Positions 1 to 17,719 of a stretch of 22,809 bases of DNA are shown here, in pieces (positions within the stretch are counted from its first letter, which is position 1; each line of letters opens with the position of its first letter). The notes under the pieces are model-generated. The model was not told the DNA's origin. It saw only the letters and a list, made by a program, of their open reading frames with translations, and searched no databases. The position numbers were made by a program, and so were the translations under genes. Origin of the DNA: a virus; IMG/VR virus record IMGVR_UViG_3300009502_000919, positions 1 to 22,809 of that record. One strand, written 5' to 3'.

Positions 1-197
1 GGTATTAGAGGTTCTGATGGCACAGCATGGGCATGGGGATATAATTCTGATTATGGCGTTTTGGGTGATGGGAGCACAATTGATAGATCAAGCCCTGTTT
101 CAGTTTTAGGCGGCATAAGTTTTACACAACTTTATATTGGATATAATAATAATATTTATGGTATTAGAGGTTCTGATGGCACAGCATGGGCATGGGG
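1..197 (+). repeat. 38-nt direct repeat within RCC1 blades (1-38 and 160-197)
   Basis: Bases 1-38 and 160-197 are identical and are spaced by 159 nt, exactly one blade (53 codons). They encode GIRGSDGTAWAW plus the following G. Identity at all third positions points to recent duplication or gene conversion, since protein constraint alone would allow synonymous drift. Confidence 0.85.
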
Positions 198-267
198 TGA
201 TGGAAGTCAAGGTTATTTAGGAATAGGTGATATGATAAATTATTCAAGCCCTGTATTAGTTATTTAA
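1..267 (+). CDS. RCC1-repeat tail protein, C-terminal fragment (5' truncated by window)
   Basis: The frame is open from base 1 to a TAA at 265-267, so this is the end of a gene that starts before the window. The 88 visible residues hold the end of one RCC1-type blade and one further blade, with the family signature GIRGSDGTAWAWG twice and LGDG/LGIGD loops after the WG core. It closes with SSPVLVI, the same strand that ends each blade in the next gene. RCC1 blades build seven-bladed beta-propellers; in phages they occur in fibres or adhesins, so a receptor-binding or fibre-tip role is inferred. The protein is a paralogue of the 287-3301 product, and the two share long identical DNA. A TTG at 61 could be mistaken for a start, but the repeat pattern continues unbroken upstream of it. 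Confidence 0.85.
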   Translation, partial: GIRGSDGTAWAWGYNSDYGVLGDGSTIDRSSPVSVLGGISFTQLYIGYNNNIYGIRGSDGTAWAWGDGSQGYLGIGDMINYSSPVLVI

Positions 268-286
268 TTTAAGAGGAAGTAATATA

Positions 287-3200
287 ATGGCAGAATGGGT
301 AGAAATAGGTTTATATGGTACATCTGGTTCTTCTGGAACTTCAGGAACATCGGGTAGTTCAGGAACATCGGGTAGTTCAGGAACATCTGGTTCTTCAAAG
401 ATTTCAGGCACAAGTGGAGGTTCTTCTGGAACATCAGGTAGTTCAGGTACTTCTGGATCGTCTGGTTTATCAAGATCTTCTGGCTCTTCTGGCACATCTG
501 GTTCTGCTGGTTCTTCTGGAACATCAGGTAGTTCAGGTACTTCTGGATCGTCTGGTACATCAGGTAGTTCAAAAACATCAGGTAGCTCAGGTACTTCTGG
601 CTCTTCTGGCACATCTGGTCTATTAGTTAATCATCAAAGTGGTAATACAATAGTATATACGAATACAAGTGTTGCTTTAACTACAGTTGATATACCTACA
701 AATACTATGGGACTTGAAGTTTTAACAAAAATATATACACCTAAAAGTACTAATAGTAAATTATTGATAGAAGTATATTTGAATGTGTCTAATTCAGGTA
801 CATCAAATTCCACAAATGCTGCATTATATAAAGATTCCGATTTATATGCATTGTGTTCAGGGCAAGGAAATAAGTATTCAGCGTCTGGTTTGGAACAGAC
901 TCATTTAATGTATGTTTATAATAATAGATCATTAAACACTATTACATTTAAAGTTAGAATAGGAGAGCAGGTAGGTACAAATACAAATATAAATGGTACA
1001 ACAGCAAGACTATTTGGTGGTTCTCAAGCATCAGTTATTAATATACAGGAATATGTAAATGATTATACGGATTTCTTAGAACTTGGATATAGTACAGTAT
1101 TTTATAGAGATACTTTTGGTAAATTATGGTCATGGGGCCAAAATGATTACGGACAGTTGGGTGATGGTACAATAACTAATCAAACAACACCAGTTTTAGT
1201 TTTGGGCGGTATTATTTTTTCTTCTATTACTACTTATTCTTCTCATACTTTAGGTATTCGTGGTTCTGATGGAATAGGATTTGGCTGGGGATATGGAAGT
1301 CAAGGTTATTTAGGAATAGGTGATAGTGCAGCATATTCAAGTCCAACTCTAGTTGCTAGTAATATAAGTTGGTCGCAATTATCAACTAGTATGTATCATT
1401 CTCTAGGCATTAATGGTTTAGATGGTACTGCGTGGGCATGGGGTATTAATAGTATTGGACAATTAGGTATGGGTAATGCAACATCATATTCTAGCCCAGT
1501 TTCAGTTCATGGTAATATTAGTTTTATACAAATATCGGCTGGTTATAATCATTCTCTAGGAATTAAGGGATTGGATGGCTCTGCTTGGACATGGGGTGGT
1601 AATGATAATGGGCAATTAGGAACTAATAATACTACAAGTTATTCAAGTCCTGTTTCAGTTGTAGGTGGTATAAGTTTTACGCAATTATCTGCTGGTAATT
1701 TTTATTCTTTAGGTATCCGTGGTTTAGATGGATCAGCATGGGCATGGGGTTATAATGGGTATGGGCAGTTAGGAACTAATAATACAACACAATATTCAAG
1801 CCCTGTTTCTGTTGTAGGTGGTATAAGTTTCAAACAAATTGATACATTTTTTTATTCTTCGGTAGGAATAAATGGTTTAAATAATACTGGTTATGCATGG
1901 GGTCTTAATTCAAATGGTCAGTTAGGAACTGGTAATTTAACAAATTGTTTATCACCTACTTTAATAATACGAAGTGTTAGTTTCTCTGATTTGAAAGTTG
2001 GGTATAATAATATTGGTGGTATAGGATATTATGATAATAAAGTTTGGTTGTGGGGAGATAATACATATAAGCAAACTACACAAAAAAATAATATGACATT
2101 ATATGTAAATCAGTCAAGTCCGGTTTTAGTAACAACTATTATAAGTTTTTCTGATATGTTTGGTGCTAGTAATTATATTGGCGGCATTCGTGGCTTGGAT
2201 GGTTCAGCATGGATGTGGGGAACTAATAATGTTGGACAGTTAGGTGATGGTACAATAACTAGTAAATATTATCCAACATTAATTTTAGGAAATATAAGTT
2301 GGAAGCAGATTGCTATTGGTGCCGATCTTAGAGTTGCGGGAACATATCCATATTTTAACCATTCTTTGGGTATTAGAGGCTCGGACGGTTCAGCATGGGC
2401 ATGGGGTGGAAACAATATTGGCCAATTAGGTCATGGAAATATAATATCATATTCAAGTCCTGTTTCTGTTCTTGGAGGAATAAGTTTTAAACAAGTTTCT
2501 TCTAATGATGATACTAGTATAGGGCTTCGTGGTTCAGATGGTACAGCATGGGCATGGGGTGATAATTCGTTGGGAAATTTGGGAAATAATACAAGAACTT
2601 CATATTCAAGTCCTGTTTCTGTTGTTGGTGGTATAAGTTGGAAAGAAACAGTTCTTGGCACTGATCATACATTAGGTATTAGAGGTTCGGATGGAACAGG
2701 TTGGGCATGGGGTTATAATACATTAGGACAGTTGGGAATTGATTCGGATCGCTCAATGCTTTCAGTATCAAGCCCTGTTTCTATTACTGGTAGTATAAGT
2801 TGGAAACAGATAGTAGCTGGGGGCTATCATTCTTTAGGTATTAGTGGTTCTAATGGTATAGCATGGTCATGGGGTAGCAATAGTTATGGGCAATTAGGTA
2901 ATGTTGGAACATTAACATCATATTCTTCAGGATTTTTTAGTGGGTCATATTATGATACTTCAATACCTACATCTGTTAAGGGTGGTATAAGTTGGGCACA
3001 ATTAGCTGCTGGTAGTGGCCATTCTTTGGGTATTAGAGGTTCAGATGGTACTGCGTGGGCATGGGGTAATAATAGTTCAGGTCAATTAGGAACTGGAAAT
3101 ACAACATCATATTCAAGTCCAACGTCAGTTCTTGGTGGTATGAGTTTTACAAAGATATATGCAGGTAGGGACTATTCTTCCGGTTTAAATGGTTTAGATG

Positions 3201-3301
3201 GTTCAATATGGGCATGGGGTAATAATGCTAATTATTGTTTGACATTTCAATATACACCAAAAAATTATATGTCACCTGTAAAAATATTACCAGATTTATA
3301 A
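287..3301 (+). CDS. Tail fibre/adhesin: Gly-Ser-Thr stalk, jelly-roll-like domain, 14 RCC1 blades
   Basis: The ATG at 287 follows AAGAGGAAG at 271-279. Three parts are visible in the 1004 residues. Residues 11-111 are almost pure GTSGSSG-type repeats, a collagen-like spacer common in phage virion proteins. Residues about 112-258 (LLIEVYLNVS, ARLFGGSQASVINIQEY) resemble the beta-sandwich domain that often follows such repeats in phage fibres. From about 264 to the end there are 13 complete RCC1 blades and a fourteenth partial one, each with a core like AWAWGxNxxGQLG followed by SSPVxVxGGIS and HSLGIRGxDG. The strand before blade 1 (ELGYSTVFYRDTFG) could complete the last blade, as in the RCC1 'velcro' closure. 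Fourteen blades would give two seven-bladed propellers. A host-recognition role is inferred. The Ser/Thr-rich stalk is a possible O-glycosylation target of the sugar enzyme encoded two genes downstream. Confidence 0.88.
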   Translation: MAEWVEIGLYGTSGSSGTSGTSGSSGTSGSSGTSGSSKISGTSGGSSGTSGSSGTSGSSGLSRSSGSSGTSGSAGSSGTSGSSGTSGSSGTSGSSKTSGSSGTSGSSGTSGLLVNHQSGNTIVYTNTSVALTTVDIPTNTMGLEVLTKIYTPKSTNSKLLIEVYLNVSNSGTSNSTNAALYKDSDLYALCSGQGNKYSASGLEQTHLMYVYNNRSLNTITFKVRIGEQVGTNTNINGTTARLFGGSQASVINIQEYVNDYTDFLELGYSTVFYRDTFGKLWSWGQNDYGQLGDGTITNQTTPVLVLGGIIFSSITTYSSHTLGIRGSDGIGFGWGYGSQGYLGIGDSAAYSSPTLVASNISWSQLSTSMYHSLGINGLDGTAWAWGINSIGQLGMGNATSYSSPVSVHGNISFIQISAGYNHSLGIKGLDGSAWTWGGNDNGQLGTNNTTSYSSPVSVVGGISFTQLSAGNFYSLGIRGLDGSAWAWGYNGYGQLGTNNTTQYSSPVSVVGGISFKQIDTFFYSSVGINGLNNTGYAWGLNSNGQLGTGNLTNCLSPTLIIRSVSFSDLKVGYNNIGGIGYYDNKVWLWGDNTYKQTTQKNNMTLYVNQSSPVLVTTIISFSDMFGASNYIGGIRGLDGSAWMWGTNNVGQLGDGTITSKYYPTLILGNISWKQIAIGADLRVAGTYPYFNHSLGIRGSDGSAWAWGGNNIGQLGHGNIISYSSPVSVLGGISFKQVSSNDDTSIGLRGSDGTAWAWGDNSLGNLGNNTRTSYSSPVSVVGGISWKETVLGTDHTLGIRGSDGTGWAWGYNTLGQLGIDSDRSMLSVSSPVSITGSISWKQIVAGGYHSLGISGSNGIAWSWGSNSYGQLGNVGTLTSYSSGFFSGSYYDTSIPTSVKGGISWAQLAAGSGHSLGIRGSDGTAWAWGNNSSGQLGTGNTTSYSSPTSVLGGMSFTKIYAGRDYSSGLNGLDGSIWAWGNNANYCLTFQYTPKNYMSPVKILPDL
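317..619 (+). repeat. GTSGSSG-coding tandem repeats, with a 48-nt exact duplication (419-466 = 509-556)
   Basis: The stalk-coding DNA is built from short units encoding GTSGSSG variants. Bases 419-466 recur exactly at 509-556 (offset 90 nt), and a 26-nt segment at 477-502 recurs at 594-619. Such repeats are prone to slippage and unequal recombination, so stalk length may vary between isolates. The reverse strand of this region is also open because of the repeat composition, not because it encodes a gene. Confidence 0.85.
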
Positions 3302-3324
3302 ATTAAAATATAGGAGAAATAGAT

Positions 3325-3624
3325 ATGGATATTACAATCACATTAACAGATGAACAAGTAACAGCATTGGAAACTTTGATTAAATCAGGCCAAAGTAGAT
3401 TTATTTTAAGAAGATTAGGTATTAGAGATAATCCTGTCGATATGAGAGCAAGTGTAGTTGCTGAAAGAAATGCTTCGCCAAAAACAACAGAGCAACTGAT
3501 TACAGAATATGCTAATACAGTTTTTAAGGGTGTGGCAACAGAGGCTGGACGAACACGAATAAGGCCAATTATACAAGAAAATCCCGCAATAAAAAATCTC
3601 TTTAACTTAAATAAAAAGGTCTAA
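3325..3624 (+). CDS. Small protein of tail region, function unknown
   Basis: This is a 99-residue product with an ATG at 3325 preceded by TAGGAGAA at 3311-3318, 23 bases after the fibre gene. The N-terminus MDITITLTDEQVTALE resembles the start of small uncharacterised proteins common in phage tail modules. The rest is soluble, predicted mainly helical, has several Arg residues and ends in LNKKV. No catalytic motif, membrane segment or cysteine is visible. It probably shares a transcript with the fibre upstream. The hairpin directly downstream could separate it translationally, or partly transcriptionally, from the sugar enzyme. I do not recognise a function; a small structural or assembly protein is only a guess from position. 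Confidence 0.72.
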   Translation: MDITITLTDEQVTALETLIKSGQSRFILRRLGIRDNPVDMRASVVAERNASPKTTEQLITEYANTVFKGVATEAGRTRIRPIIQENPAIKNLFNLNKKV

Positions 3625-3634
3625 TTTACAAAAC

Positions 3635-3676
3635 AATCCTCCAAACATAAATAATATAAAATATGTTTGGAGGATT
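3635..3676 (+). promoter_or_regulatory. 15-bp perfect hairpin sequestering the ribosome site of the sugar enzyme
   Basis: AATCCTCCAAACATA (3635-3649) is the exact reverse complement of TATGTTTGGAGGATT (3662-3676), with a 12-nt A/T loop (3650-3661). The right arm contains the only Shine-Dalgarno sequence (GGAGG, 3669-3673) of the gene starting at 3679, so read-through RNA should hide it. A late-promoter-like box (3646-3653) would place initiation near the start of the right arm and remove the left arm. T4 gene e (lysozyme) and soc use this arrangement. The short T-run after the stem (3675-3678) makes a terminator less likely, though not excluded. Confidence 0.75.
3646..3653 (+). promoter_or_regulatory. 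Late-promoter-like box CATAAATA inside hairpin
   Basis: CATAAATA differs in one base from the T4 late promoter box TATAAATA and is followed by ATATAAAA. A start 5-8 bases downstream would yield RNA beginning near 3660, which lacks the left arm of the hairpin. The placement gives it more weight than the match alone, because the region is A/T-rich. Confidence 0.4.
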
Positions 3677-3678
3677 TT

Positions 3679-6600
3679 ATGTTTTCTAATTATCAAAAAA
3701 CTACATTTGATGCTATATTAGGCCATACAAGTTTCATACCACATACAGGGTATGCATATCATGCTAGAGATTTCTTTACTAGATTAAATAAAAATATACC
3801 TACTAGAATAAGAAATTTTGCGCACACGCCAAATTTAACCCATCTAACACAAGAACAAAAAGATATGTGTATTGAACAAACATGGATAGGAGAACCATAT
3901 AAAATCGGTACTCCTTATACAAGAGATCATAATAAGTCTTTATTAAATATAGTTTTAATGGAATCAAATCATTATTATTTCTTTGAAAATTATGATGGGC
4001 CAAAAATTGCTTATAATGTATGGGAGAGTACTAGGCAAAAAGAACCATTTTTTAATAAATTATTGGAATTTGATCAATTATGGGTTCCAACAGAATGGCA
4101 AAAACGGGTTACTATTGAACAGGGGTATCCAGAAGAAAAAATTAGAGTAGTACATGAAGGTGTTGATTTTGATATTTTTAATATTGTATCGGAAGATAAA
4201 CCTAATGAATATAAAGATAACAGATTTAAATTTATTATTTTTGGCCGATGGGATTATAGAAAATATACAACAGAAATGATTAAAGCATTTCTTGAAGAAT
4301 TTAAATCTGATGAGCCAATTGATCTTATTGTTTCTATTGATAATCCATTTGCTGTTGATAATTTAAAAACAACAAAAGAAAGATTAAAATTTTATGGATT
4401 TACTGATAAAAGAATTAAAGATATAGGTTTTGTATCTAGGGAAGATTATGTAAAATATCTTAAAGCCGGCCATGTTTTTTTAAGTTGTTCGAGAGCTGAG
4501 GGCTGGCATCTGCCTCTTGGCGAGGCTATTGCTTGCGGTATTCCAACTATTTGTTCTTCTCATGGTGCTCAGTTAGAATTTGCGGAGGGGATTTCCCATG
4601 TAGTAAAAACAAAGGAATATAGAAAGCCGCAAAATGTTTTTATGTCAGATGATACACCAGGCGAATGGGATGAACCGGATTTTGATGACTTGAAACGGGT
4701 TATGAGATATGTATATAAAAATTATGAAGAGTGTAAAGAAAAGGCATTAATAGGTGCTGAAAAGATAAAAGAAAATTTTAAATGGGAAGATGCTATAAAA
4801 ACCGCTGAAGGTTATATTTCTGAACTATATCAAAAATTATATCCACCTGAAATTAAATTAAATATTGGTTGTGGTACAGATAAGTTGAATGGATATATAA
4901 ATGCCGATATAATTGAGGGTTTAGGCGATATACAAATGGATGCGACTAATTTAAATTGTGATGATTGTAGTATTGATGTATTAAATTCATCGCATTTACT
5001 AGAGCATTTCGGCAGAAGATTTATTTCAGATATTCTTAAAGAATGGTATAGAGTATTAAAATATAATGGTAAATTAATTTTAGAAGTTCCAAATTTTGAA
5101 TGGTGTGTAAATTATTGGTTACAATATGAAAAAGAAGAATTTCCATTGGATACAATATTTGGTAATCAACATAATATGGGTGAGTATCATAAGACCGGAT
5201 TTACTAAAGATTCTATTATAGATTTTGTAAATGATGCTGGATTTCATATAGAAAGTATTGAAGATATATGGTCACACGCACAACAATGTTTCAAATTGGT
5301 ATGTACAAAAAGGGATATAAAATTTTCAGATGATGTATTTATACTTAGTACTTATCCCGATGAAGAATTTAAGTTGGATATATTACGAAATACAATATCA
5401 AAATTAAAGTTATATAATAAACCTATTGCTATTACAACTCATTATATTTTACCTGAAGATATAATAAATAGTGTTGATTATTTAATATATGACAAAAATA
5501 ATCCTTTAAGTGAAAATTGGAATTTAAATCAATGGTTCACAGTTGCTAAAAAGTTAAAAATTGTTACTCAATATGAAAATAAATATCATGCTGTAACAGT
5601 TTTAACAAATATGACAAATGGTATTACATATTTATCAAATCTGTATTCATATGGGCATTTTATAGAATATGATATAGATGTTGATTTGGATAAGTATTTA
5701 GATGTATATGGAATGCAAAGAAATAAAAATAAAAAACTTGTTTGTTTTAGATATGATGTAGAACAAAAATATCCACCAGATAAAGAAAAGGGTGTCATAA
5801 CAAATTGCCTAAGTTTTGATTTAAAATATTGGAATGATTTATTTTCAAAGTATAATATTAGAAATTGGTCTGAATATGTTAAAGTTGATGATGATGCCTG
5901 TGAAAAATTAAATCAACCTAATGATTATATATTTGAAAACTGGTTCTATACATTTTTAAAATATAATGATTGCTTAAAAAATACATATATTATCCCTTAT
6001 AATATAAAAAAGGATATTCTGTTTGAGAGAAGTATGTTAGATCAGGGTAAAAAGGAACTTAATGTAAATATAGAAGTATCAAAAACAAATGATGATAAAG
6101 CTATACTTTTTATATGTAACTTTAAGTCAGATGAAGAACATCAATTTATAGTTAGACATATAAAAGATGATGTTGTAGTAGCAACTGGTAGTGATATTGT
6201 TAAAAAGGATGATATAAAATATTTAAAATTTGAAAGGGAAGGCTTATTAGAAGTAGTTATTGTGGGAACAAATATAAAAAAAATATTAGATTTAACAGAT
6301 GATAAAATTTATAAGGCAACATTTAAGTTTTATGATGATAAAATAATATGTAAAAATTGGCAAGAAATTAATTCAAAGGGATTTATAAAAAGTAGCAACA
6401 AAATAGAATATACTTTTAGTGATAAACCTAGAGTTGAAATTACAGGTATAAATGAATGTGAATATCATGTTCAATTTATAGACAATGATACCGGACTTAT
6501 AGTACATGAAGGTGATATAAAACATGGTGGAGATATAAAGAGTATTACTTGGATTGCTTGTAATAGAAGATACTATACTAACTGGAAAATAATAGTAAAA

Positions 6601-7476
6601 AACAAAACCGAAAATATAACTGAAGAATATATTTTTAATCCTGAAAACAAGTCTGTATATATTCTTTTAGATAGTAAATCTTTAGGCGATACAATTGCTT
6701 GGTTTCCATATGTTGAGGAGTTTAGAAAAATTCATAATTGTAAGGTTTATGTTGGTACATTCCATAATCACTTATTTGAAAATAACTATCCAGAATTAAA
6801 CTTTATAAAAATTGATACACTATCTAATTTTTATGCAACTTATATTGTTGGTTGTAGAGATAATGATTATAATTCTAATAAAAATAACTGGATGTCAATA
6901 CCATTACAACAAGTATCATCTGATTATTTGGGATTAGACTATAAAGAAATTAAACCAAATATAGTTAAAATAGATACTGGAAGGCCTATTAAGGAAAAGT
7001 ATGTGTGCATAGCAGAGCATTCTACGTTTCAAATGAAGTATTGGAATAATTCAGCTGGTTGGCAAGTTCTAGTAAACTATCTTAACTCTTTGGGTTATAA
7101 AGTTATAGTAATCAGTAAAGAAAGTACAAAGTTAAGAAGTATAATAGATAAAACTAATAAGTCCATAGAAGAAACTATAAATAACATTATACATTGTGAA
7201 TTCTTTATAGGTGTTAGTTCTGGCCCTGCTTGGTTGGCATGGGGTTTAGATAAAAAAGTAGTAATCATATCCGGTAGTACAAAAGAATATGTTGAAATGA
7301 AAGATTGTATTAGGATTATAAATAGAGATGTATGTAATGGATGTATGAATGATATAAATGTTACACTAGATAGAGGTAACTGGAACTTCTGCCCTCATAA
7401 TAAAAAATTTGAATGTACAAGAAATATAGATATAAAAATGGTTATCACAAGAATACAAAAATTATTAGGTATATAA
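3679..7476 (+). CDS. Multidomain glycosyltransferase/methyltransferase with TibC-like O-heptosyltransferase C-terminus
   Basis: I place the start at ATG 3679; the upstream in-frame TTG at 3667 lies inside the GGAGG ribosome site. The 1265 residues show several modules. Residues 1 to about 390 are a GT-B (GT4-type) glycosyltransferase with VHEGVDFDIF, FGRWDYRK and an E-x7-E motif starting at E274 (EGWHLPLGE). Residues about 390-550 are a class I SAM methyltransferase with motif I LNIGCG at 394-399. Residues about 553-760 (ILSTYPDEE, VDYLIYDKNNPL) look like a further sugar-transferase domain found in multidomain phage and bacterial enzymes. A beta-rich linker follows. Residues about 993-1265 match the autotransporter O-heptosyltransferase family (TibC/AAH): LGDTIAWFPYVEEF, AEHSTFQMKYWNN, SGPAWLAWG, and four Cys at 1219, 1222, 1238 and 1246 that bind iron in TibC. 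It probably glycosylates a protein or builds a glycan; the adjacent Ser/Thr-rich fibre is an inferred acceptor. Confidence 0.85.
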   Translation: MFSNYQKTTFDAILGHTSFIPHTGYAYHARDFFTRLNKNIPTRIRNFAHTPNLTHLTQEQKDMCIEQTWIGEPYKIGTPYTRDHNKSLLNIVLMESNHYYFFENYDGPKIAYNVWESTRQKEPFFNKLLEFDQLWVPTEWQKRVTIEQGYPEEKIRVVHEGVDFDIFNIVSEDKPNEYKDNRFKFIIFGRWDYRKYTTEMIKAFLEEFKSDEPIDLIVSIDNPFAVDNLKTTKERLKFYGFTDKRIKDIGFVSREDYVKYLKAGHVFLSCSRAEGWHLPLGEAIACGIPTICSSHGAQLEFAEGISHVVKTKEYRKPQNVFMSDDTPGEWDEPDFDDLKRVMRYVYKNYEECKEKALIGAEKIKENFKWEDAIKTAEGYISELYQKLYPPEIKLNIGCGTDKLNGYINADIIEGLGDIQMDATNLNCDDCSIDVLNSSHLLEHFGRRFISDILKEWYRVLKYNGKLILEVPNFEWCVNYWLQYEKEEFPLDTIFGNQHNMGEYHKTGFTKDSIIDFVNDAGFHIESIEDIWSHAQQCFKLVCTKRDIKFSDDVFILSTYPDEEFKLDILRNTISKLKLYNKPIAITTHYILPEDIINSVDYLIYDKNNPLSENWNLNQWFTVAKKLKIVTQYENKYHAVTVLTNMTNGITYLSNLYSYGHFIEYDIDVDLDKYLDVYGMQRNKNKKLVCFRYDVEQKYPPDKEKGVITNCLSFDLKYWNDLFSKYNIRNWSEYVKVDDDACEKLNQPNDYIFENWFYTFLKYNDCLKNTYIIPYNIKKDILFERSMLDQGKKELNVNIEVSKTNDDKAILFICNFKSDEEHQFIVRHIKDDVVVATGSDIVKKDDIKYLKFEREGLLEVVIVGTNIKKILDLTDDKIYKATFKFYDDKIICKNWQEINSKGFIKSSNKIEYTFSDKPRVEITGINECEYHVQFIDNDTGLIVHEGDIKHGGDIKSITWIACNRRYYTNWKIIVKNKTENITEEYIFNPENKSVYILLDSKSLGDTIAWFPYVEEFRKIHNCKVYVGTFHNHLFENNYPELNFIKIDTLSNFYATYIVGCRDNDYNSNKNNWMSIPLQQVSSDYLGLDYKEIKPNIVKIDTGRPIKEKYVCIAEHSTFQMKYWNNSAGWQVLVNYLNSLGYKVIVISKESTKLRSIIDKTNKSIEETINNIIHCEFFIGVSSGPAWLAWGLDKKVVIISGSTKEYVEMKDCIRIINRDVCNGCMNDINVTLDRGNWNFCPHNKKFECTRNIDIKMVITRIQKLLGI

Positions 7477-7618
7477 ACAATATAATAATACATAAATTAA
7501 TCAAGTATAATACCATAATACTATGCTATATTATATACTTTCCTTTTTGCCTGACCGTTGCACTTATTATAACAGATTGCCAGAATATGTAAATCAAAAT
7601 ATGAAAAATATTTTTTTA

Positions 7619-7630
7619 TAATAAATATAA
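7619..7630 (+). promoter_or_regulatory. Late-promoter-like box TAATAAATATAA before tail gene
   Basis: This lies in the 184-nt gap 7477-7660, the largest non-coding stretch in the left half. The same 12 bases occur at 11109-11120 before the paralogous tail gene, each preceded by a T-run and about 30 nt before the start codon. The core AATAAATA is one base from the T4 late box TATAAATA. The rest of the gap is A/T-rich with only a weak inverted repeat (AAGTATA near 7504, TATACTT near 7535), which I do not call as a terminator. Confidence 0.5.
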
Positions 7631-7660
7631 GAAAGATCAAGTGTTTGGAGATTTATATAT

Positions 7661-9451
7661 ATGAAATATCAAGAAGTTGATATGCAAGGGAAATTTTGGA
7701 TACAGAGAGTTAATGGTGTACCTGCTCATACTTCTGCTGATGAGGGGCGAATAATATATGATGAAATAAGTGAATATATGTATTTTGCCTCTGCAACTGA
7801 ATGGGTAATGTTATCATTAGAAGCGTTTAATAAAGTAAAAGTTCAGAGTGATACAGTAAGTTATATAGACGCAGTTGGTTCTGAAGATTCATTGTATTTT
7901 ATTGGTGATAATGGTGTAACAACAGTATCCGCATCAGCAAATTCAAATATTATAATTTCAGGTGCTAGTGAATTTTCTACAATTTCTACAGATAGTGGTA
8001 CTGTTAATGCAGATGGTGGAAATGATTCAGTAGATTTTATAGGTGAGAATGGTATAGATATAGTTAATGCTTCGTCTAGTAGTGTTGGATTTTCACAACC
8101 AAATCGTTATTCAGCATTAGAAGTTGCTGGAACAACATATACATCATCAACAGCGATAGAGTCAATTTTAACATTAAATTTTGAAGGTGTTGATGGCGAT
8201 TCTTCTTGGGTTGAAGAATCTCATGGATATACACCAGATGTTTGTAGTGAGGGTAATATTGATACAGGTCAGTACTATTCTGGATCATCTTCTTTAGTTT
8301 TAGGCCATCCTGAGAATGGGGGTTTAGTTAGATATGCTTTACCTACATATGTCGATAATATAACATTAGAACAATATGTTAGATCAGCGGGTGGGTCAGG
8401 TTCTTCAGGTTCGGGTAAATGTCTTGTTGCTTTGAGTTATACAGATGGTGTTCCATATGTTCTTATAGAAACGGGTTCTAATACTTTAGAGGTAGATATT
8501 GTTGATAGAGTTGGTATATCATTTACAGATGAGATTTTATATAATTTTCCTGTAGATGAGTGGGTAAAAGTGAAATTTACATCTATTGGCAGAACTATGA
8601 ACTTTTATCTTAATGATACTTTATATTATACTTGTACTTCAGGAGTAGATTATCCATTAGGGGGTGGATTACCTTCTTGGTATATATATAATAATTCTGG
8701 TTATTTAATGTGGGTTGATAAAGTTACATTAACTGCTAATATTATTCAGCAAACACCTGAAGATATGGCTTATGGAAATATGGATGCTATTACATATGCT
8801 GATAAGATAAATTTTATAGAAGGCCGTGATATAAGTTTCTCAAATGAACTTCATACTGTAACTGGGACACCTGATGATGTATCTGATTTAGTTTTATGGC
8901 TTAGAGCTGATAGTGTCGCCTTAAATAATGGTGATCCTGTTACTACTATAACAGATAAAAGTTCATATGGTACAGTTATTGATTTTACAGCAATAGAAGG
9001 TTTAAGTTCATTGCCTGTATATAAAACAAATGTTATAAATGGGCATCCAGCTATATCTTTTGATACTTTAAGTGTTAATGATTTGGAAATCATGGCGGGT
9101 TATTTAAATTCTTTAATGTCAGATAGACAGGCGATGGTGGAAAGTGCAACAGGTTTGTCTGCGATGCTTGTTTTTAATGTGAGTTCTAATAGTATTAATG
9201 ATCTATTTCCTTTTCTTTTTCCTTTTCCTTTAGGGCCACATTTTATGTTTATGTCATGTAGTTTTTCTGATTATATAGTACATTTGGATATAGATGGTGC
9301 TGTTATAGATTATTCTACTGTCAGTTTGCAAAATTCTATGACGATGATATTTGAATTTTTTTTATATATTACACTTTCAGTTGAATTAGTTGATGGTGCT
9401 ATATATTCTAGAGATATTGGTGGAATAAATGGTGTGGCTGGTTTAGGATAA
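7661..9451 (+). CDS. Tail fibre protein: fibre-repeat N-terminus plus two concanavalin/LamG-like domains
   Basis: The ATG at 7661 follows TTTGGAG at 7643-7649. In the 596-residue product, residues 1 to about 150 are shared with the 11142-12284 product (MKYQEVDMQGKFWIQR, TSADEGRIIY, FIGENGID). They contain two copies of the fibre repeat in which an IGxNG turn is followed by alternating beta strands. Residues about 165-365 look like a concanavalin A/LamG-type carbohydrate-binding sandwich (VKVKFTSIGRTMNFYLNDT). Residues from about 404 open a second such domain with the familiar LVLWLRADS, DKSSYGT and NGHPAISFDT motifs. This second domain ends early: the usual closing strands with a bulky NxRALS-type end are absent and the tail is an unusual hydrophobic stretch (FPFLFPFPLGPHF). 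A sugar-binding adhesin role is inferred. Confidence 0.8.
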   Translation: MKYQEVDMQGKFWIQRVNGVPAHTSADEGRIIYDEISEYMYFASATEWVMLSLEAFNKVKVQSDTVSYIDAVGSEDSLYFIGDNGVTTVSASANSNIIISGASEFSTISTDSGTVNADGGNDSVDFIGENGIDIVNASSSSVGFSQPNRYSALEVAGTTYTSSTAIESILTLNFEGVDGDSSWVEESHGYTPDVCSEGNIDTGQYYSGSSSLVLGHPENGGLVRYALPTYVDNITLEQYVRSAGGSGSSGSGKCLVALSYTDGVPYVLIETGSNTLEVDIVDRVGISFTDEILYNFPVDEWVKVKFTSIGRTMNFYLNDTLYYTCTSGVDYPLGGGLPSWYIYNNSGYLMWVDKVTLTANIIQQTPEDMAYGNMDAITYADKINFIEGRDISFSNELHTVTGTPDDVSDLVLWLRADSVALNNGDPVTTITDKSSYGTVIDFTAIEGLSSLPVYKTNVINGHPAISFDTLSVNDLEIMAGYLNSLMSDRQAMVESATGLSAMLVFNVSSNSINDLFPFLFPFPLGPHFMFMSCSFSDYIVHLDIDGAVIDYSTVSLQNSMTMIFEFFLYITLSVELVDGAIYSRDIGGINGVAGLG

Positions 9452-9469
9452 CAAATGGAGATAGAATAA

Positions 9470-11083
9470 ATGGCTAATATAAGTTGGAATTTTACAGAAC
9501 CAGTCCCACCACCACCTTTTGATATTGATGATAGTTATCTTGTTTTAGAAGATTATATAGATAAAAGATATTTTACACAAAGAATACCACCTAAAGTTGG
9601 TGCCATTACAATAAGTGATATAGGTACTGGAACCGTTGATAATTTTTTAAAAATTGGACGAAAAATCTGGTTATATGAGGATGTAGCACCTAATGGTTGG
9701 ACTATTTTAGATACCTGTATTGATGGTTTATTGGCAGTAAAAGGCTCTACAATAATAAATTATAATAATACTGGCGGTACAGTTACTACATATGGTCAGT
9801 ATATGATTCATACATTTACAAGTTCTGGAACATTTACTCCTAAAAATATGTCAGGTGTTGTTGATGTTCTTGTTGTGGCTGGTGGTGGTGGCGGTGCTGG
9901 CGGACAGTTTGGTGGTGGCGGTGGTGGTGCTGGTGGTTTTGTATATACTACTTCAGTTCCCGTTTCAGTAAATGTTCCTATAACTGTTACTGTAGGTGCT
10001 GGCGGTGCTGGTGGGCCTCTTACTACTAATCCAACTTCTAATGGTTTTAATGGCGGCAATTCATCTTTTGGTTCTATTTCTGCTACTGGGGGTGGCGGTG
10101 GTGGTGGTTGGAATTTTACTACAAGTACACCAAATGCTAAATCTGGCGGTTCCGGTGGTGGCGGTGGCGGTGGTAATCAATGGTATCCAACTGGCGGATT
10201 AGGTATTTTAGGGCAGGGAAATAATGGTGGCCTTGGTGGTTGGTATTATCATAATGTTGATCCTGCAAATGGCGGTGGTGGCGGCGGCGCCGGTAATGTA
10301 GGTGGGGCAGCAAATTATACTAATGGTGTTTATACTGAATATGTTGGTGGCGATGGAGGAGCTGGTTTATCATCAACTATTTATGATGGTACTGCTAGAT
10401 GGTATGCTGGTGGGGGTGGCGGTGGTGCATGGTATTCTGGTCGTGGTGGCTATGGCGGAATTGGTGGTGGCGGAGCTGGTAGTGTAATAGTTGCTTCAAG
10501 TGCATTAGCTAATACTGGTGGTGGCGGTGGCGGTGGCGGTCGTTTTGGTTCTGGAACTCTTGGTGGTTCAGGTGGTTCAGGTATTGTTATAGTTAGATGT
10601 TTAATAGTAGATTTTCAATCATTTACTACAACATATAATACAGCTGGCGGTAGCGGAGCTGGAACTTGGATGAGAGATAGCCATACCCATACAACAAGTG
10701 ATTCAACTTTAACATTAGAAAATATATCATCGCATTATCATTATGTATGTATTGATGAATCATTGCTAGGTAGACATATACCACCACATGATTATATGAC
10801 TGGTACTTTTGGTATTTATGGTTATGTAATTTTAACAAATTTAAATTCTATTCCATATAGTGCTGATTATTCTACTTGTGGCGCAACTACTGAGGCTCCT
10901 CATTATGGCTATATGCTATATGGTAGTGATATAACACCTACTATTGGAAAAACATCAAATATTGGCTCGACTACAGTTCATAGCCATGGTATAACGAATT
11001 CTGGTGGTAATATTGATACTTGGCGCCCTCTTTCTAATGTAGGTATAATCATAGGGAAAGATGCACCAGTTATAATAACGTAA
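9470..11083 (+). CDS. Tail adhesin: collar-like domain interrupted by a glycine-rich domain
   Basis: The ATG at 9470 follows ATGGAGAT, 18 bases after the preceding stop. The 537 residues start with a short Pro-rich N-terminus (PVPPPPFDID). Residues about 59-92 (GRKIWLYEDVAPNGWTILD, CIDGLLAVKG) are the first part of a tail-collar-like domain. Residues about 110-377 are a glycine-rich domain: FTSSGTFTPK, VVDVLVVAGGGGGAGG and many GGGGGG runs, ending in GSGIVIVRC. This type occurs in phage adhesins and probably forms packed polyglycine helices, as known for the distal adhesin of phage S16. Residues about 389-537 return to the collar fold (TAGGSGAGTW, SHTHTTSD, WRPLSNVGIII). The 11142 product has the same collar without the insert. 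A receptor-binding role is inferred. Confidence 0.82.
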   Translation: MANISWNFTEPVPPPPFDIDDSYLVLEDYIDKRYFTQRIPPKVGAITISDIGTGTVDNFLKIGRKIWLYEDVAPNGWTILDTCIDGLLAVKGSTIINYNNTGGTVTTYGQYMIHTFTSSGTFTPKNMSGVVDVLVVAGGGGGAGGQFGGGGGGAGGFVYTTSVPVSVNVPITVTVGAGGAGGPLTTNPTSNGFNGGNSSFGSISATGGGGGGGWNFTTSTPNAKSGGSGGGGGGGNQWYPTGGLGILGQGNNGGLGGWYYHNVDPANGGGGGGAGNVGGAANYTNGVYTEYVGGDGGAGLSSTIYDGTARWYAGGGGGGAWYSGRGGYGGIGGGGAGSVIVASSALANTGGGGGGGGRFGSGTLGGSGGSGIVIVRCLIVDFQSFTTTYNTAGGSGAGTWMRDSHTHTTSDSTLTLENISSHYHYVCIDESLLGRHIPPHDYMTGTFGIYGYVILTNLNSIPYSADYSTCGATTEAPHYGYMLYGSDITPTIGKTSNIGSTTVHSHGITNSGGNIDTWRPLSNVGIIIGKDAPVIIT

Positions 11084-11108
11084 ATAAAGTATACAAATTA
11101 TCTTTTTG

Positions 11109-11120
11109 TAATAAATATAA
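11109..11120 (+). promoter_or_regulatory. Late-promoter-like box TAATAAATATAA (second copy)
   Basis: It is identical to 7619-7630, also preceded by TTTTT within a few bases and followed by an A/G-rich leader, and it sits 22 bases before the ATG of the paralogous tail gene. Two identical copies in front of related genes support a real promoter or an element copied along with the gene. Confidence 0.5.
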
Positions 11121-11141
11121 AGATAAGGGAGAAATGTAGAT

Positions 11142-12284
11142 ATGCAATTTCATGAAATAGATATGGATGGAATTTTTTGGTTAGAACGTCTAGCGTCTTT
11201 ACCAAGTTGGACTTCTACAGATGAAGGTAGAATTGTGTATTCTATAGAAGATCAGAATATTTTTTATGGTAATGCTATCGAATGGGTATCGTTGCCTATA
11301 AATGTTTTCAAGTATATTTCAGCTCAATCTGGTGTTGCAATTGAAGCTACATCTACAAATAATACTTTAACTGTTACTGGTGAAAATGGTATTGTAGTTA
11401 GTACAGTCCCATATAATAAAGAACTGTATATAACAGGTAGTAATAGTTTTGGCGAAGTATCTACTGATTTTGGAAGTGTTTTGGCAAAAAATTCATCAGA
11501 CGACATTAATTTTTTAGGTGATAATGGCCTTAGAGTAACAGCTGTTGATTCTACAAAATCTGTTACATTTACAGGTTCTAATGCATATTCTGGTGTTGTT
11601 GCTGGTGGTGTTCTTATGAGTTCAACAACACCTTATGATGCTCTTGAATTGATAGCAGGCGATGGTATTATATTAGCATCTGAATGGCATACAGTATATG
11701 ATGATACCCTTGATCTTGATGTTGGTGTAGCATCTGTTACTATTTCAACAACAATGTTTGATACTGTAAATGATTTTTTTACTTCAGGTCGAAAACTTTG
11801 GTTATATGAAAATTCAGCACCTACTGGTTGGACGATTCTTACTGCTTGTTCTGACGGTTTATTAGCTGTAAAAGGTGGGACACAGGCATATAATGTTGCA
11901 GGTGGAACATCAGCTGGAACATGGACTATTACAGGTCATACACATACAACAAGTGATTTTACTTTAACCGAAACGAATTTACCAGCACATTATCATTTTA
12001 CTGCTACAAATGAATCAATGACAAATAAAACAGCAATGGTTGCGTTATCGTCTACGAATTCAATACCATTTTATTCTAGTTATCTTGCGCCTTTACTTCC
12101 TGAAAATGGTTATATGTTTTATGGTGGAAGTGCTGGTGTAACCCCAACAATAGGTAAAACATCACCATCTGGTGGTTCTGGCGGTGTTGCTTTACCGCAT
12201 AATCATGGTGCAACAAGTTCTAGTAATGAAACTAGTTTATGGCGTCCAAAAGCTTATGTTGGTATTATAGTTCAAAAATCATAA
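11142..12284 (+). CDS. Tail fibre protein with collar-like receptor-binding domain
   Basis: The ATG at 11142 follows AAGGGAGA at 11125-11132. In the 380 residues, the first 165 or so are homologous to the N-terminus of the 7661-9451 product (MQFHEIDMDGIFWLERL, TSTDEGRIVY, GENGI and GDNGL turns). Both therefore likely attach to the same tail site. From about residue 201 comes a tail-collar-like domain (GRKLWLYENSAPTGWTIL, ACSDGLLAVKGG). It has His-rich metal-binding-like elements HTHTTSD (about 266) and LPAHYH, and the ending NHG...LWRPKAYVGIIV, as in short-tail-fibre collar domains. The product thus combines the attachment part of one neighbour with the binding part of the other (9470-11083). 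It is the intact, uninterrupted version of the collar. Confidence 0.83.
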   Translation: MQFHEIDMDGIFWLERLASLPSWTSTDEGRIVYSIEDQNIFYGNAIEWVSLPINVFKYISAQSGVAIEATSTNNTLTVTGENGIVVSTVPYNKELYITGSNSFGEVSTDFGSVLAKNSSDDINFLGDNGLRVTAVDSTKSVTFTGSNAYSGVVAGGVLMSSTTPYDALELIAGDGIILASEWHTVYDDTLDLDVGVASVTISTTMFDTVNDFFTSGRKLWLYENSAPTGWTILTACSDGLLAVKGGTQAYNVAGGTSAGTWTITGHTHTTSDFTLTETNLPAHYHFTATNESMTNKTAMVALSSTNSIPFYSSYLAPLLPENGYMFYGGSAGVTPTIGKTSPSGGSGGVALPHNHGATSSSNETSLWRPKAYVGIIVQKS

Positions 12285-12300
12285 AGGAGTAATAAACTGT

Positions 12301-12651
12301 ATGGAAAATACTTGTGTAAAAGAGAAGTGCGAGTTTTGGAATAATGGTCATTGCCCGAATTATATGGAATCATGGTGGATGCCTCCTGAAACTCAAGGTA
12401 GTAAGCCAGTTTTAGTTTCTGATTGTGCACCAAAGAGAACATTTTTGATGATACAGGACTTGAGTAATAGACTTGTTGGCGTTCAAAAATCACAGGAAGA
12501 GTTGAGGAATGAAACAGTTTGGGTTCAAGTCGTAGCAAATGTCCTTGGAAAGAACTCTGGTATAGATTTAGAACATTTTGTTTCAGAACGTAAAAGGCAA
12601 CTAAATATACTTGATGTTAAAGAAAAATTGGAAATAGAAAATAAGGAGTAA
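12301..12651 (+). CDS. Small Cys-containing protein upstream of portal, function unknown
   Basis: The ribosome site AAAGGAG (12283-12289) overlaps the stop of the tail gene and the ATG is at 12301. The product is 116 residues. The N-terminal third holds Cys5, Cys10, Cys18 and Cys42 in the context CEFWNNGHCPNYMESWW and DCAPKR, a spacing that could bind a metal such as zinc. The middle and C-terminal parts (residues about 50-116) look helical and charged, and probably coil. Only 3 bases separate it from the portal gene, and the portal ribosome site overlaps its end, so the two are translationally linked. I believe similar small proteins precede portal genes in related phages, but I assign no function; a DNA-packaging or portal accessory role is speculative. 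Confidence 0.72.
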   Translation: MENTCVKEKCEFWNNGHCPNYMESWWMPPETQGSKPVLVSDCAPKRTFLMIQDLSNRLVGVQKSQEELRNETVWVQVVANVLGKNSGIDLEHFVSERKRQLNILDVKEKLEIENKE

Positions 12652-12654
12652 TTT

Positions 12655-14343
12655 ATGGCTTGGTATGATTTTTTTAATGGCAAAGATAGAGAATTAAATG
12701 GCCGATTAGATGAAGCCATAAAAGCATTTGAAAAGAAGGGTAATGATACATCTACTTTGAAGCAGTTACAGAAAACAACTGGTGAAGGTATTGATGATGT
12801 TTATGCTCTTATAAATGGCTATGGTACAACAGGTCTTGATGGTTTTAATAAATTCTATAACAGGTTTATCAATAAAACATTTGAAGATGAAGTCTCAAGA
12901 ATTATGGAATATAGAAAAATGGCTGAATCTCCTGAAATTGCCGATGTTATAGAAGATGCTGTAAATGAATCAACGCAGGTTAATGATAATGGAGATAGTG
13001 TTCAGTTACAAATTACAAATGATAAATTAGAAAAGAATAAAAATATAAAGAAAATTTTATATGAAGAGTTCCATGAGTTATTTTATAACAGAATACAAAT
13101 GAATGATAAGATTTGGGATATGTTTAGAAGATTTTTAATTGATGGGCGTATTTATTATGAAAGAATTATTCAAGAAGGTAATATAAAAAAGGGTCTTGTT
13201 AATATAAGAGTTTTACCATCTGAAACTATGGATTTTGAATATGATATAAGAACGGGAAAAGTTTTGAATTTTTATCAGTATTTATCGACTAATATTAAAA
13301 GGCCATCATCAAAGGATGAGGCTATAAAAAGACCTGATATAGTTGTATTTAATCCAGAACAGATTGGCTATTTTAATTATGGCATTTATGGAAGAACTAA
13401 ATATGAAATTTTTGGATATTTAGAAAAATCAAGAGTGCCATATAATCAGTTAAAACTTCTTGAAACATCTGTTATTATTTATCGTATAGTTAGAGCGCCT
13501 GAAAGATTTGTATTTAAAATTGATACAGGAAATATGCCTAGAGATAAAGCATTGAAATTTGTTGAGAAGATTAAATCAAAGTATATAAAGAAACAAAGTT
13601 ATGATCCAACTACAGGTAGCCTTTCGCAAGAGCCTGAAGTACTTTCTATTTTAGAAAATTTTTGGCTGCCTGTAAGTGCCGATGGCCGTGGTTCATCTAT
13701 TGAAACAGTTGGTGGTGGTAATGCTGCTGGGTTTACTGAGCTAGATGATATTTATTATTTCGCAAAGAAACTTTATAGAGCATTAAAGTATCCTCTTTCA
13801 AGAGTTGCAAATGAAAATAACAATACAACTAGTGAAACTTTGTTTGGTGGTTCAAAATCCGGTGAGATTTCAAGGGATGAAATTAAATGGGCTAAATTTT
13901 TAGAAAGACAGCAAGGTATGTTCTGTAAAGAGTTTAGGGATTTATTTTTACTTCATCTTGAATTTAAAGGTATAAAGAAACAATATGATTTAGATATAGA
14001 CGATATAACTATTACTATGACGCCACCTTCACATTATAATGAGCAGATGGAGCAAGGTTTCTTGGAGCAGAGTTTTGCTAACTATAATGCACTTTCAAAT
14101 AATGCAGAGTTTTCTAAGTATTATTTGATAAAGAAATACTTGAAATGGACAGATGAAGATATAGAAGAAAACAAAAAGGGATTTGAACTTGATAAGGAAT
14201 ATGGCTTGGCTCCCGAAGTTGACGAGTTCGGCGGTATGGGTGGTGAAGAAGGAATGGGCGGCCAAGAAGGTGGAGGGCAAGAAGGTAGTGAAGGAGAAGA
14301 AGTTGATTATTCTAATTTAGGCCCTCCACCCCCATCGGTGTAG
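12655..14343 (+). CDS. 20: Portal vertex protein (T4 gp20-like)
   Basis: The product is 562 residues, close to T4 gp20 (524). AAGGAG at 12643-12648 precedes the ATG. Recognisable gp20 stretches include YRKMAESPEIADVIEDAVNE (near residue 85), MFRRFLIDGRIYYERI (about 155), FKIDTGNMPRDKAL (about 286), ENFWLPVSADGRGSSIET (about 335) and AKKLYRALKYPLSRV (about 370). The portal forms the dodecameric ring at one head vertex, through which DNA is packaged and ejected, and it nucleates prohead assembly. The C-terminal 40 residues are an odd Gly/Glu-rich tail (GGMGGEEGMGGQEGGG) ending in PPPPSV, not typical of T4 gp20. The gene begins the head cluster and ends one base before the GNAT gene. Confidence 0.95.
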   Translation: MAWYDFFNGKDRELNGRLDEAIKAFEKKGNDTSTLKQLQKTTGEGIDDVYALINGYGTTGLDGFNKFYNRFINKTFEDEVSRIMEYRKMAESPEIADVIEDAVNESTQVNDNGDSVQLQITNDKLEKNKNIKKILYEEFHELFYNRIQMNDKIWDMFRRFLIDGRIYYERIIQEGNIKKGLVNIRVLPSETMDFEYDIRTGKVLNFYQYLSTNIKRPSSKDEAIKRPDIVVFNPEQIGYFNYGIYGRTKYEIFGYLEKSRVPYNQLKLLETSVIIYRIVRAPERFVFKIDTGNMPRDKALKFVEKIKSKYIKKQSYDPTTGSLSQEPEVLSILENFWLPVSADGRGSSIETVGGGNAAGFTELDDIYYFAKKLYRALKYPLSRVANENNNTTSETLFGGSKSGEISRDEIKWAKFLERQQGMFCKEFRDLFLLHLEFKGIKKQYDLDIDDITITMTPPSHYNEQMEQGFLEQSFANYNALSNNAEFSKYYLIKKYLKWTDEDIEENKKGFELDKEYGLAPEVDEFGGMGGEEGMGGQEGGGQEGSEGEEVDYSNLGPPPPSV

Positions 14344-14344
14344 C

Positions 14345-14842
14345 ATGAGATACCAAGCCTTTCTAAATGAAGAAAATAATAATGGTATAGTTATAAAGAA
14401 GCCATTAGAATGCACAGAAGATGAGCTAGATATATTTTATGATATGGTTATTGACGCTGATCAAGCCTATCCATCTGAAGGTGATTTAAAAGGGAAAGGT
14501 GTTTATTTAGGGTTTTATTATAAAGATGATGAAGTTATTGCCATTTCAGCTATTAAAAAACCATATAGAAGCAAAACTGTTTTTGAAATGGCGCCTGAAG
14601 AAGCTAAGAACTATAAATATGAAATGGGTTGGTCTTATACATTACCAGAACATCAGAGTAAAGGAATAATGCATCAGTTAAATACTGCATTGTTAAATAA
14701 GGTTAAAGGTAGTGGTGTATTTTCAACAGTTAGAATAGATAATAAGTTTTCTATTAAAGGACTTGAGAAACTTGGATTTACTATGTTGGGGCCAAAAATT
14801 GATGGTATGGTAACTAATCTATATTTAATGGTGAAAAACTAA
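14345..14842 (+). CDS. GNAT-family N-acetyltransferase, possibly head-packaged
   Basis: The ATG at 14345 is one base past the portal stop and has no clear Shine-Dalgarno, so translation is probably coupled. The 165-residue protein has a GNAT fold. Strands around VYLGFYYKDDEVIAISAI and MGWSYTLPEHQSKGIM (acetyl-CoA loop Q104-S-K-G-I-M, a slightly degenerate Q-x-x-G-x-G/A) lead to the C-terminal SIKGLEKLGFTMLGP. The family moves acetyl from acetyl-CoA to amines of proteins or small molecules; the substrate here is unknown. The N-terminus MRYQAFLNE resembles the T4 capsid-targeting peptide (MKTYQEFIAE) and ends in an L-x-E site usable by a gp21-type protease. That, and its place inside the head operon, suggest packaging in the capsid and delivery to the host. 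The cleavage idea is inference. Confidence 0.85.
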   Translation: MRYQAFLNEENNNGIVIKKPLECTEDELDIFYDMVIDADQAYPSEGDLKGKGVYLGFYYKDDEVIAISAIKKPYRSKTVFEMAPEEAKNYKYEMGWSYTLPEHQSKGIMHQLNTALLNKVKGSGVFSTVRIDNKFSIKGLEKLGFTMLGPKIDGMVTNLYLMVKN

Positions 14843-17088: not shown

Positions 17089-17104
17089 ATGTGGAGGATG
17101 TAAA

Positions 17105-17353
17105 ATGGAAGAAAATGAAATAAAGGGTGTACTTGATGATTTTGAGGCTGATAATTTTGTAGATGCACAGGATAAGTTACAGAAGATTGTAAGAACTGCC
17201 AGAGATGAATTTATACAGAATAAATTGGGTCTAAAAAATCCTTTGACAACACCAGAAGTAGTAAAAGTTGAAGATAATGTAGATATTGATATAAATAATA
17301 CTGATGTTGAAGATAAAAAACCGAAGGCAAAACGTCTTTTAAAGAAAAAATAG
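17105..17353 (+). CDS. 67: Prohead core protein (T4 gp67-like)
   Basis: GGAGG at 17093-17097 precedes the ATG at 17105. The protein has 82 residues (T4 gp67 has 80). It starts with an acidic helical half, FEADNFVDAQDKLQKIV and RDEFIQNKLGLKNPL, the latter typical of gp67-like proteins in T4 relatives. An acidic linker (VEDNVDIDINNTDVED) and a strongly basic end (KKPKAKRLLKKK) follow. gp67 is a minor part of the prohead core, is cut by the prohead protease and influences head shape. The location directly before the small core-like gene and the protease agrees with the T4 order 20-67-68-21-22-23. The basic tail differs from T4, where the C-terminus is acidic. Confidence 0.75.
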   Translation: MEENEIKGVLDDFEADNFVDAQDKLQKIVRTARDEFIQNKLGLKNPLTTPEVVKVEDNVDIDINNTDVEDKKPKAKRLLKKK

Positions 17354-17371
17354 TATCGTGGAGGATATAGA

Positions 17372-17719
17372 ATGGATAAAGAACTTGATGCAATTATTGA
17401 AAAGCACCTTGTAGAAGATACTGAATCTATTGATGAAGCAGGTGGTTTTGCAGAGTCCGAAGTATCAAGCATATCAACAGGATTAAAAAGAATATCATAT
17501 AGACTTTCTAAAGCAAATACGCCACAAAGATTTAAAGATGTTTTTGATATGGTAGCTTCTCTTGTTAATGCTTTTCCTATGAAATCAAAATATATATGGA
17601 AGATTGTAGCAGATGCATATCCTGAAAGATATGGTGCTGATATTGTAGAACCTGTAGTAACTCCTACACCTACTATATCTACAGGAAATAGTCTTTCTCC
17701 TAGAGGATATAAGGAGTAA
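17372..17719 (+). CDS. Small prohead core-like protein, positional match to T4 gp68
   Basis: GGAGG at 17360-17364 and ATG at 17372 give 115 residues. The first 30 residues are acidic (MDKELDAIIEKHLVEDTESIDE). The middle (GLKRISYRLSKANTPQRFKD to SLVNAFPMKSKYIWKIVAD) is basic and helical. The end is Pro/Thr-rich (VVTPTPTISTGNSLSPRGYKE). It lies between the gp67-like gene and the protease, where T4 has gene 68, and 4 bases separate it from the protease gene, whose ribosome site overlaps its end. I see no decisive sequence match to gp68, so the assignment is by position and general character only. IIE and LVE near the start could serve as prohead protease sites. Confidence 0.7.
   Translation: MDKELDAIIEKHLVEDTESIDEAGGFAESEVSSISTGLKRISYRLSKANTPQRFKDVFDMVASLVNAFPMKSKYIWKIVADAYPERYGADIVEPVVTPTPTISTGNSLSPRGYKE

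Follow-up and report, generated by a model that had tools for sequence, protein, structure and literature searches.

The window analysed here (22,809 nucleotides of IMG/VR record IMGVR_UViG_3300009502_000919) comes from a T4-like phage in environmental DNA, and its gene 3679–7476 encodes a large protein with several domains of the kind that build or modify glycans. What does such a protein act on, and is its acceptor encoded beside it? The original prediction saw a TibC-like O-heptosyltransferase, fused to other sugar enzymes, that decorates a Ser/Thr-rich fibre encoded nearby.

A four-domain protein encoded in a structural cassette

The gene is a single open frame in the window translation, and an alternative in-frame TTG start is possible at 3667. 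The protein, its domains and the neighbouring structural genes are as follows.

3679–7476 (+), four-domain glycan-modifying protein, 1265 aa (ORF, Pfam/NCBIfam profiles)
3679–4833 (+), GT4-type glycosyltransferase domain, residues 1–385 (PF00534, 1e-10; phrog_2170, 9e-36)
4834–5313 (+), SAM-dependent methyltransferase domain, residues 386–545 (PF08241, 1.1e-6)
5314–6393 (+), GT-A-fold domain (about residues 546–795, HFIEYDIDVD motif) and beta-rich linker to residue 905 (AF2 model)
6394–7473 (+), TibC-family domain, probable O-glycosyltransferase, residues 906–1265 (TIGR04414; PDB 4rap/4rb4, E 2e-45; AF2)
287–3301 (+), candidate acceptor fibre of 1004 aa with GTSGSSG tract and RCC1 beta-propeller repeats (RCC1, 2e-102; Collagen, 1.6e-4; phage tail-fibre PHROGs)
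317–622 (+), Ser/Thr-rich GXX tract, fibre residues 11–112 (48 Ser, 15 Thr and 32 Gly in 102 residues)
7661–12284 (+), three more fibre-like genes: 7661–9451, 9470–11083 (PF21722, tail-fibre PHROG matches) and 11142–12284
12655–14343 (+), T4-like portal, marker of the structural cassette (PF07230, 1e-99)

The fusion that had been proposed, of a GT4-type glycosyltransferase, a methyltransferase and a further sugar-transferase-like domain, is borne out by the matches to Glycos_transf_1 (PF00534, residues 174–301) and Methyltransf_11 (PF08241, residues 418–468) and by a GT-A fold in the model. Because the middle domain (residues 546–835) has no family match in the Pfam search and its AF2 model, with a pLDDT of 74, reaches a best VIA-align Z of 13.4 (LARGE1, over 200 residues), we regard it as a likely, not a certain, GT-A glycosyltransferase; the model also gives Z 12–13 with many GT-A transferases and nucleotidyltransferases. 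The entire four-domain order is common to close portal relatives (L327, L337, L347, L351 and L356).

The window covers part of a structural cassette of the T4 type, and the gp23 capsid protein (20750–21955) is also encoded in it. The enzyme gene lies two genes downstream of the fibre 287–3301, whose tract of about 100 residues is present as predicted, with GXX repeats and 62% Ser+Thr, and upstream of the fibre-like genes 7661–12284, two of which (7661–9451 and 11142–12284) gave no family match in Pfam and PHROG profile searches. Phage glycosyltransferases often modify DNA, as is generally known and as PMC12619734 states, and the enzyme could in principle glycosylate the phage genome. However, the neighbouring genes encode fibre and head proteins, no gene for nucleotide modification could be recognised in the window, and proteins are the substrates of the TibC-family enzymes that have been characterised; we consider an action on DNA extremely improbable.

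Several minor features of the window were also recorded. The cut frame 1–267 (+) resembles the final part of a further RCC1-type gene, and the RCC1-type region at 1–267 and 287–3301 occurs several times in a 127.5-kb IMG/VR contig of the same phage (L002). This contig is identical to window positions 1–17392 except for a length difference near 15200, where 81 bases differ at window 15186–15236, inside gene 14842–17088 (748 aa in the window, 775 aa in the contig). A GNAT acetyltransferase (14345–14842, +) lies between the portal and the next gene, and the prohead protease (Peptidase_S77; 17724–19397, +) is split at about residues 67–420 by an intein that carries a LAGLIDADG-like domain. By the capsid gene is a homing-endonuclease-like gene (22067–22807, +; PHROG HNH endonuclease; CapR/DUF4379 zinc-finger repeats), which is cut at the window end.

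The C-terminal domain belongs to the TibC family

The profile search that had been suggested for the C-terminus matched TIGR04414 (hepto_Aah_TibC) at residues 904–1261 with 266.8 bits, above the curated cut-off of 200, and the domain matches the solved TibC structures (PDB 4rap, 4rb4) at E 2e-45. An AF2 model of the domain built with 34 sequences (pLDDT 93.7) can be superimposed on TibC (4rap) with a Z of 41.1 and an rmsd of 1.6 Å over 349 residues, and it contains the N-terminal beta-barrel, the GT-B catalytic domain and the iron-finger region that define the TibC fold; LPS heptosyltransferases reach only Z 19. Membership of the autotransporter heptosyltransferase family is thus upheld by profile and fold, while the extent of about 270 residues first given for the domain has to be enlarged to about 358.

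TibC is an E. coli enzyme that glycosylates adhesin repeats, in which R286 contacts the adenine and a thumb region forms the dodecamer (PMC4358343). Residue roles were taken from that study and transferred through an alignment of 136 family members (59 phage and 77 bacterial rows).

6688–6690 (+), Asp1004, equivalent of the TibC catalytic base D110 (in 136/136 aligned members)
7036–7038 (+), Lys1120, equivalent of the phosphate-binding K230 of TibC (57/59 phage and 77/77 bacterial rows)
7174–7176 (+), Thr1166, where TibC has the adenine-contacting R286 (Arg in 55/56 AIDA-side and 20/59 phage rows)
7333–7416 (+), predicted iron-finger Cys 1219, 1222, 1238 and 1246 (Cys at all four columns in 59/59 phage rows)

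The equivalents of D110, T226, K230 and W305 are all kept in the window protein. The four Cys lie exactly where they had been placed and align with Cys339, Cys342, Cys358 and Cys370 of the TibC iron finger. With profile score, fold and active-site residues in agreement, a chance match is excluded. The thumb region (TibC residues 255–285) comprises 21 residues in the window protein, in contrast to 31 in TibC and 30–32 on the AIDA-associated side of the family. Because R286 is replaced by Thr and the dodecamer-thumb region is shortened, we prefer to call the domain a probable TibC-family O-glycosyltransferase and avoid the name heptosyltransferase. Of the name heptosyltransferase, the TibC-family part stands on profile and fold; heptose as the sugar is not established, given the Thr at R286 and the lack of a phage ADP-heptose synthase above cut-off.

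The enzyme recurs with Ser/Thr-rich tracts in phages

A scan returned 133 viral contigs with this gene family, and close relatives of the enzyme are found in four records of a phage collection of 50,697, one of them cultured. To survey co-occurrence with GTSGSSG fibres, as had been suggested, 50 viral records picked for a GTSGSSG-type tract were compared with 50 picked for a GAQ/GPQ collagen tract (3.23 and 2.44 Mb searched). The TibC family is present in 17 of the former (16 above cut-off). In contrast, the GAQ/GPQ records yielded three matches of any kind and one above cut-off (Fisher p 3e-5 for 17 versus 1), and this sole record also has a short SSGTSG stretch. The other 33 tract records, in part fragments, lack TibC. 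In the reverse direction, the strict pattern (G[ST][ST])x5 occurs in 21 of 33 TibC-anchored records, often with tens to hundreds of matches, and the reversed control pattern in none of the 33. In 16 of these 21 records, against 5.7 expected, the tract falls within the TibC locus; among the 12 records without a strict tract, some have looser tracts and some are short.

A further set was picked by portal similarity, independently of both TibC and tract. Among these records, which are related to one another and include several short negatives, the tract is present in 7/7 with TibC and 1/21 without, the single exception being a contig that ends in the tract. When a near-duplicate is dropped and only region-covering contigs are kept, the figures are 6/6 and 1/6 (p=0.008). 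Rather than lying consistently away from fibre genes, the homologues show the opposite.

In the cultured Microcystis phage Mel-JY01 (PP395634.1), tracts lie on both sides of the TibC fusion (4750–8430, with the annotation FkbM methyltransferase), at 95–2169 and 9446–9664, and nowhere else in the 190 kb of the phage; this phage makes the prediction of tract glycosylation directly testable. The hypothetical proteins deposited on the minus strand at 1–2298 and 9361–9898 of Mel-JY01 are antisense to plus-strand Ser/Thr collagen-like repeats. In a 735-kb phage, TibC gene and tract are separated by about 6 kb, and in a 636-kb phage no tract lies within 20 kb of the TibC gene.

Enzyme and tract could also be common passengers of large-phage structural cassettes, in which case the tract would be bare or the acceptor would be another virion protein. 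Both are found in fibre regions and could be co-inherited as structural cassette genes. In a survey of same-strand genes within 6 kb, the idea that every GTSGSSG tract adjoins some glycosyltransferase was rejected, since one weak match (Anp1) was found among 46 neighbours of TibC-negative tracts; neighbours of GAQ/GPQ genes include GT4 (4/109) and GlcNAc-transferase (2/109). Since TibC is absent from 33 of 50 tract records and no other glycosyltransferase is enriched near TibC-negative tracts, a tract can occur where no dedicated enzyme is recognised. However, the GAQ/GPQ collagen genes, which are the same kind of gene, lack TibC apart from the one record above cut-off, and the bacterial loci described below argue further against mere co-inheritance.

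The TibC family divides along likely acceptor type

A scan of bacterial genomes gave 77 TibC-family loci, and a tree was built from 136 domains (59 phage, 77 bacterial; quick IQ-TREE, midpoint root). One side of the tree holds the 59 phage sequences with 21 bacterial ones and the other holds 56 bacterial sequences, including a 54-row AIDA-side clade with a support of 100. A Ser/Thr-rich GXX gene is present at 17/21 of the phage-side bacterial loci versus 1/56 on the other side (p 2e-12, uncorrected for relatedness). These tract genes are typically adjacent and encode short proteins with an N-terminus that is signal-peptide-like or lipobox-like by eye; the loci come from Methylobacter, Methylococcaceae and other Gammaproteobacteria. 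Some of the 21 loci (Bacteroidota, Rickettsiaceae) may lie on phage contigs that were assigned to bacterial bins. In three bacterial loci (L396, L399 and L405), two Ser/Thr-tract genes lie in the locus of one TibC-like gene, and the tract proteins are lipoprotein-like by eye.

The strand-loop-strand repeat of AIDA type (TIGR04415), the target of the classical autotransporter enzymes, shows the converse distribution, being present in 25/29 other-side genomes and 0/13 phage-side genomes (p 9e-8, uncorrected for relatedness). It is also absent from all 44 TibC-carrying phage records, the window phage included, and an AIDA-type acceptor for the phage enzyme was rejected on this basis. The TibC family thus divides along likely acceptor type. 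The passenger explanation has to account for methanotroph and gammaproteobacterial loci in which members of this same enzyme clade are accompanied by short, unrelated secreted tract proteins, and for the other part of the family being paired with AIDA repeats instead; we judge it unlikely.

The enzyme might instead alter a host surface glycan or surface protein during infection, for example to block superinfection, with the tract a mere neighbour. Serotype-altering phage glycosyltransferases are known, as cited in PMC12619734, and a relative of heptosyltransferases would find LPS-like substrates if the host bears LPS. Yet TibC-family enzymes act on protein Ser and the LPS heptosyltransferases are far less similar in fold (Z 19, compared with 41 for TibC), and the association is with Ser/Thr tracts, not GAQ/GPQ collagen genes, and is repeated in bacterial chromosomes. 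A host-surface role therefore appears improbable.

A proposed glycosylation system for collagen-like tracts

Because enzyme and tract recur together across phages and bacteria, the enzyme probably adds sugar to the Ser/Thr collagen-like tract, and the proposed acceptor, a Ser/Thr-rich GXX fibre tract, is supported by controlled co-occurrence in phages and separately in bacterial chromosomes. We consider it likely that the protein assembles glycans as a fusion enzyme, in which the TibC-like domain O-glycosylates the fibre tract and the fused domains elaborate the glycan. The domains, fold, active site and co-occurrence were computed, and from them we infer the acceptor residues, the donor sugar, the order of the domains and the benefit to the phage. 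Most likely, the TibC-like domain takes a sugar from a nucleotide-sugar donor and attaches it by an O-link to Ser/Thr of the tract (317–622), as TibC does with adhesin repeats and SgtA with BclA collagen repeats. The GT4 and GT-A domains would then most likely extend it with further sugars, which the methyltransferase would methylate. The outcome would be a densely glycosylated fibre stalk that is plausibly stiffened, protease-resistant or shielded.

The window enzyme shares with TibC/Aah (BAHT; TIGR04414; PDB 4rap, 4rb4; PMC4358343) the fold (Z 41.1), an above-cut-off profile match, the catalytic Asp, the donor-phosphate Thr/Lys, Trp305 and the four-Cys iron finger. It differs in its place in another part of the family tree, in the Thr at the adenine-contacting R286 and the thumb of 21 rather than 31 residues, and in being phage-encoded, fused to three other domains and placed beside a collagen-like tract in a record without AIDA-type target repeats. 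By analogy of function, the closest working parallel is SgtA of Clostridium difficile, which is encoded next to bclA3 and attaches GlcNAc by an O-link to Thr in the collagen region, and also to Ser in test peptides (PMC7157674). Both are glycosyltransferase genes adjoining a Thr/Ser-rich GXX collagen-like gene, although SgtA uses UDP-GlcNAc and serves a spore-surface system. Mycobacteriophages likewise encode glycosyltransferases that modify virion structural proteins (Freeman et al., 2023, as cited in excerpts of PMC12363180 and PMC12619734); their targets are the capsid and the tail tube, and these excerpts mention neither a TibC-type enzyme nor a collagen tract.

More broadly, we lean towards the view that a second branch of the TibC family represents an O-glycosylation system that is widespread and as yet undescribed. 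Its substrates would be collagen-like tracts of Ser/Thr type (GTSGSSG) in place of autotransporter repeats, on virion fibres in large phages and on small secreted or lipoprotein-like proteins in methanotrophs and other Gammaproteobacteria, and fused enzymes would elaborate the glycan and cap it. If true, this would be protein glycosylation of an undescribed kind, and the autotransporter O-heptosyltransferase label is being put on enzymes with another substrate. In a literature search of partial coverage with few subscription papers, no paper joined a heptosyltransferase with collagen-like proteins or phages in this sense. Modification of collagen-like fibres by phages is hardly known, though such fibres are common in phages, and the match between a distinct enzyme clade and a distinct acceptor motif gives a gene family that has drawn little notice a substrate rule that can be tested.

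Donor sugar and decorating domains

Phage-made ADP-heptose was rejected as the donor, as ADP-heptose synthase (TIGR02199) matched 5 of 44 TibC-carrying phage records, none above cut-off, and gave no match in the window phage. Any heptose would therefore be host-made; we infer a host-made donor sugar, for which heptose is possible and not favoured over others.

The fusion partners that would decorate the glycan vary among relatives and include GT4 (20/50), several methyltransferases, one sulfotransferase and GT25. In L331 (frame 4562–8959, +), a SAM-methyltransferase-like domain (residues about 1091–1292) is inserted inside the TibC domain itself, at about profile position 204. The varied fusions and this insert fit a variable capping of the glycan. 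The original proposal that one protein starts, extends and caps a glycan is a reasonable reading of the fused GT4, GT-A and methyltransferase domains, with a presumed order of action. In L017, L056 and L071, a second partial TibC-like gene (271–281 aa) lies directly downstream of the main gene.
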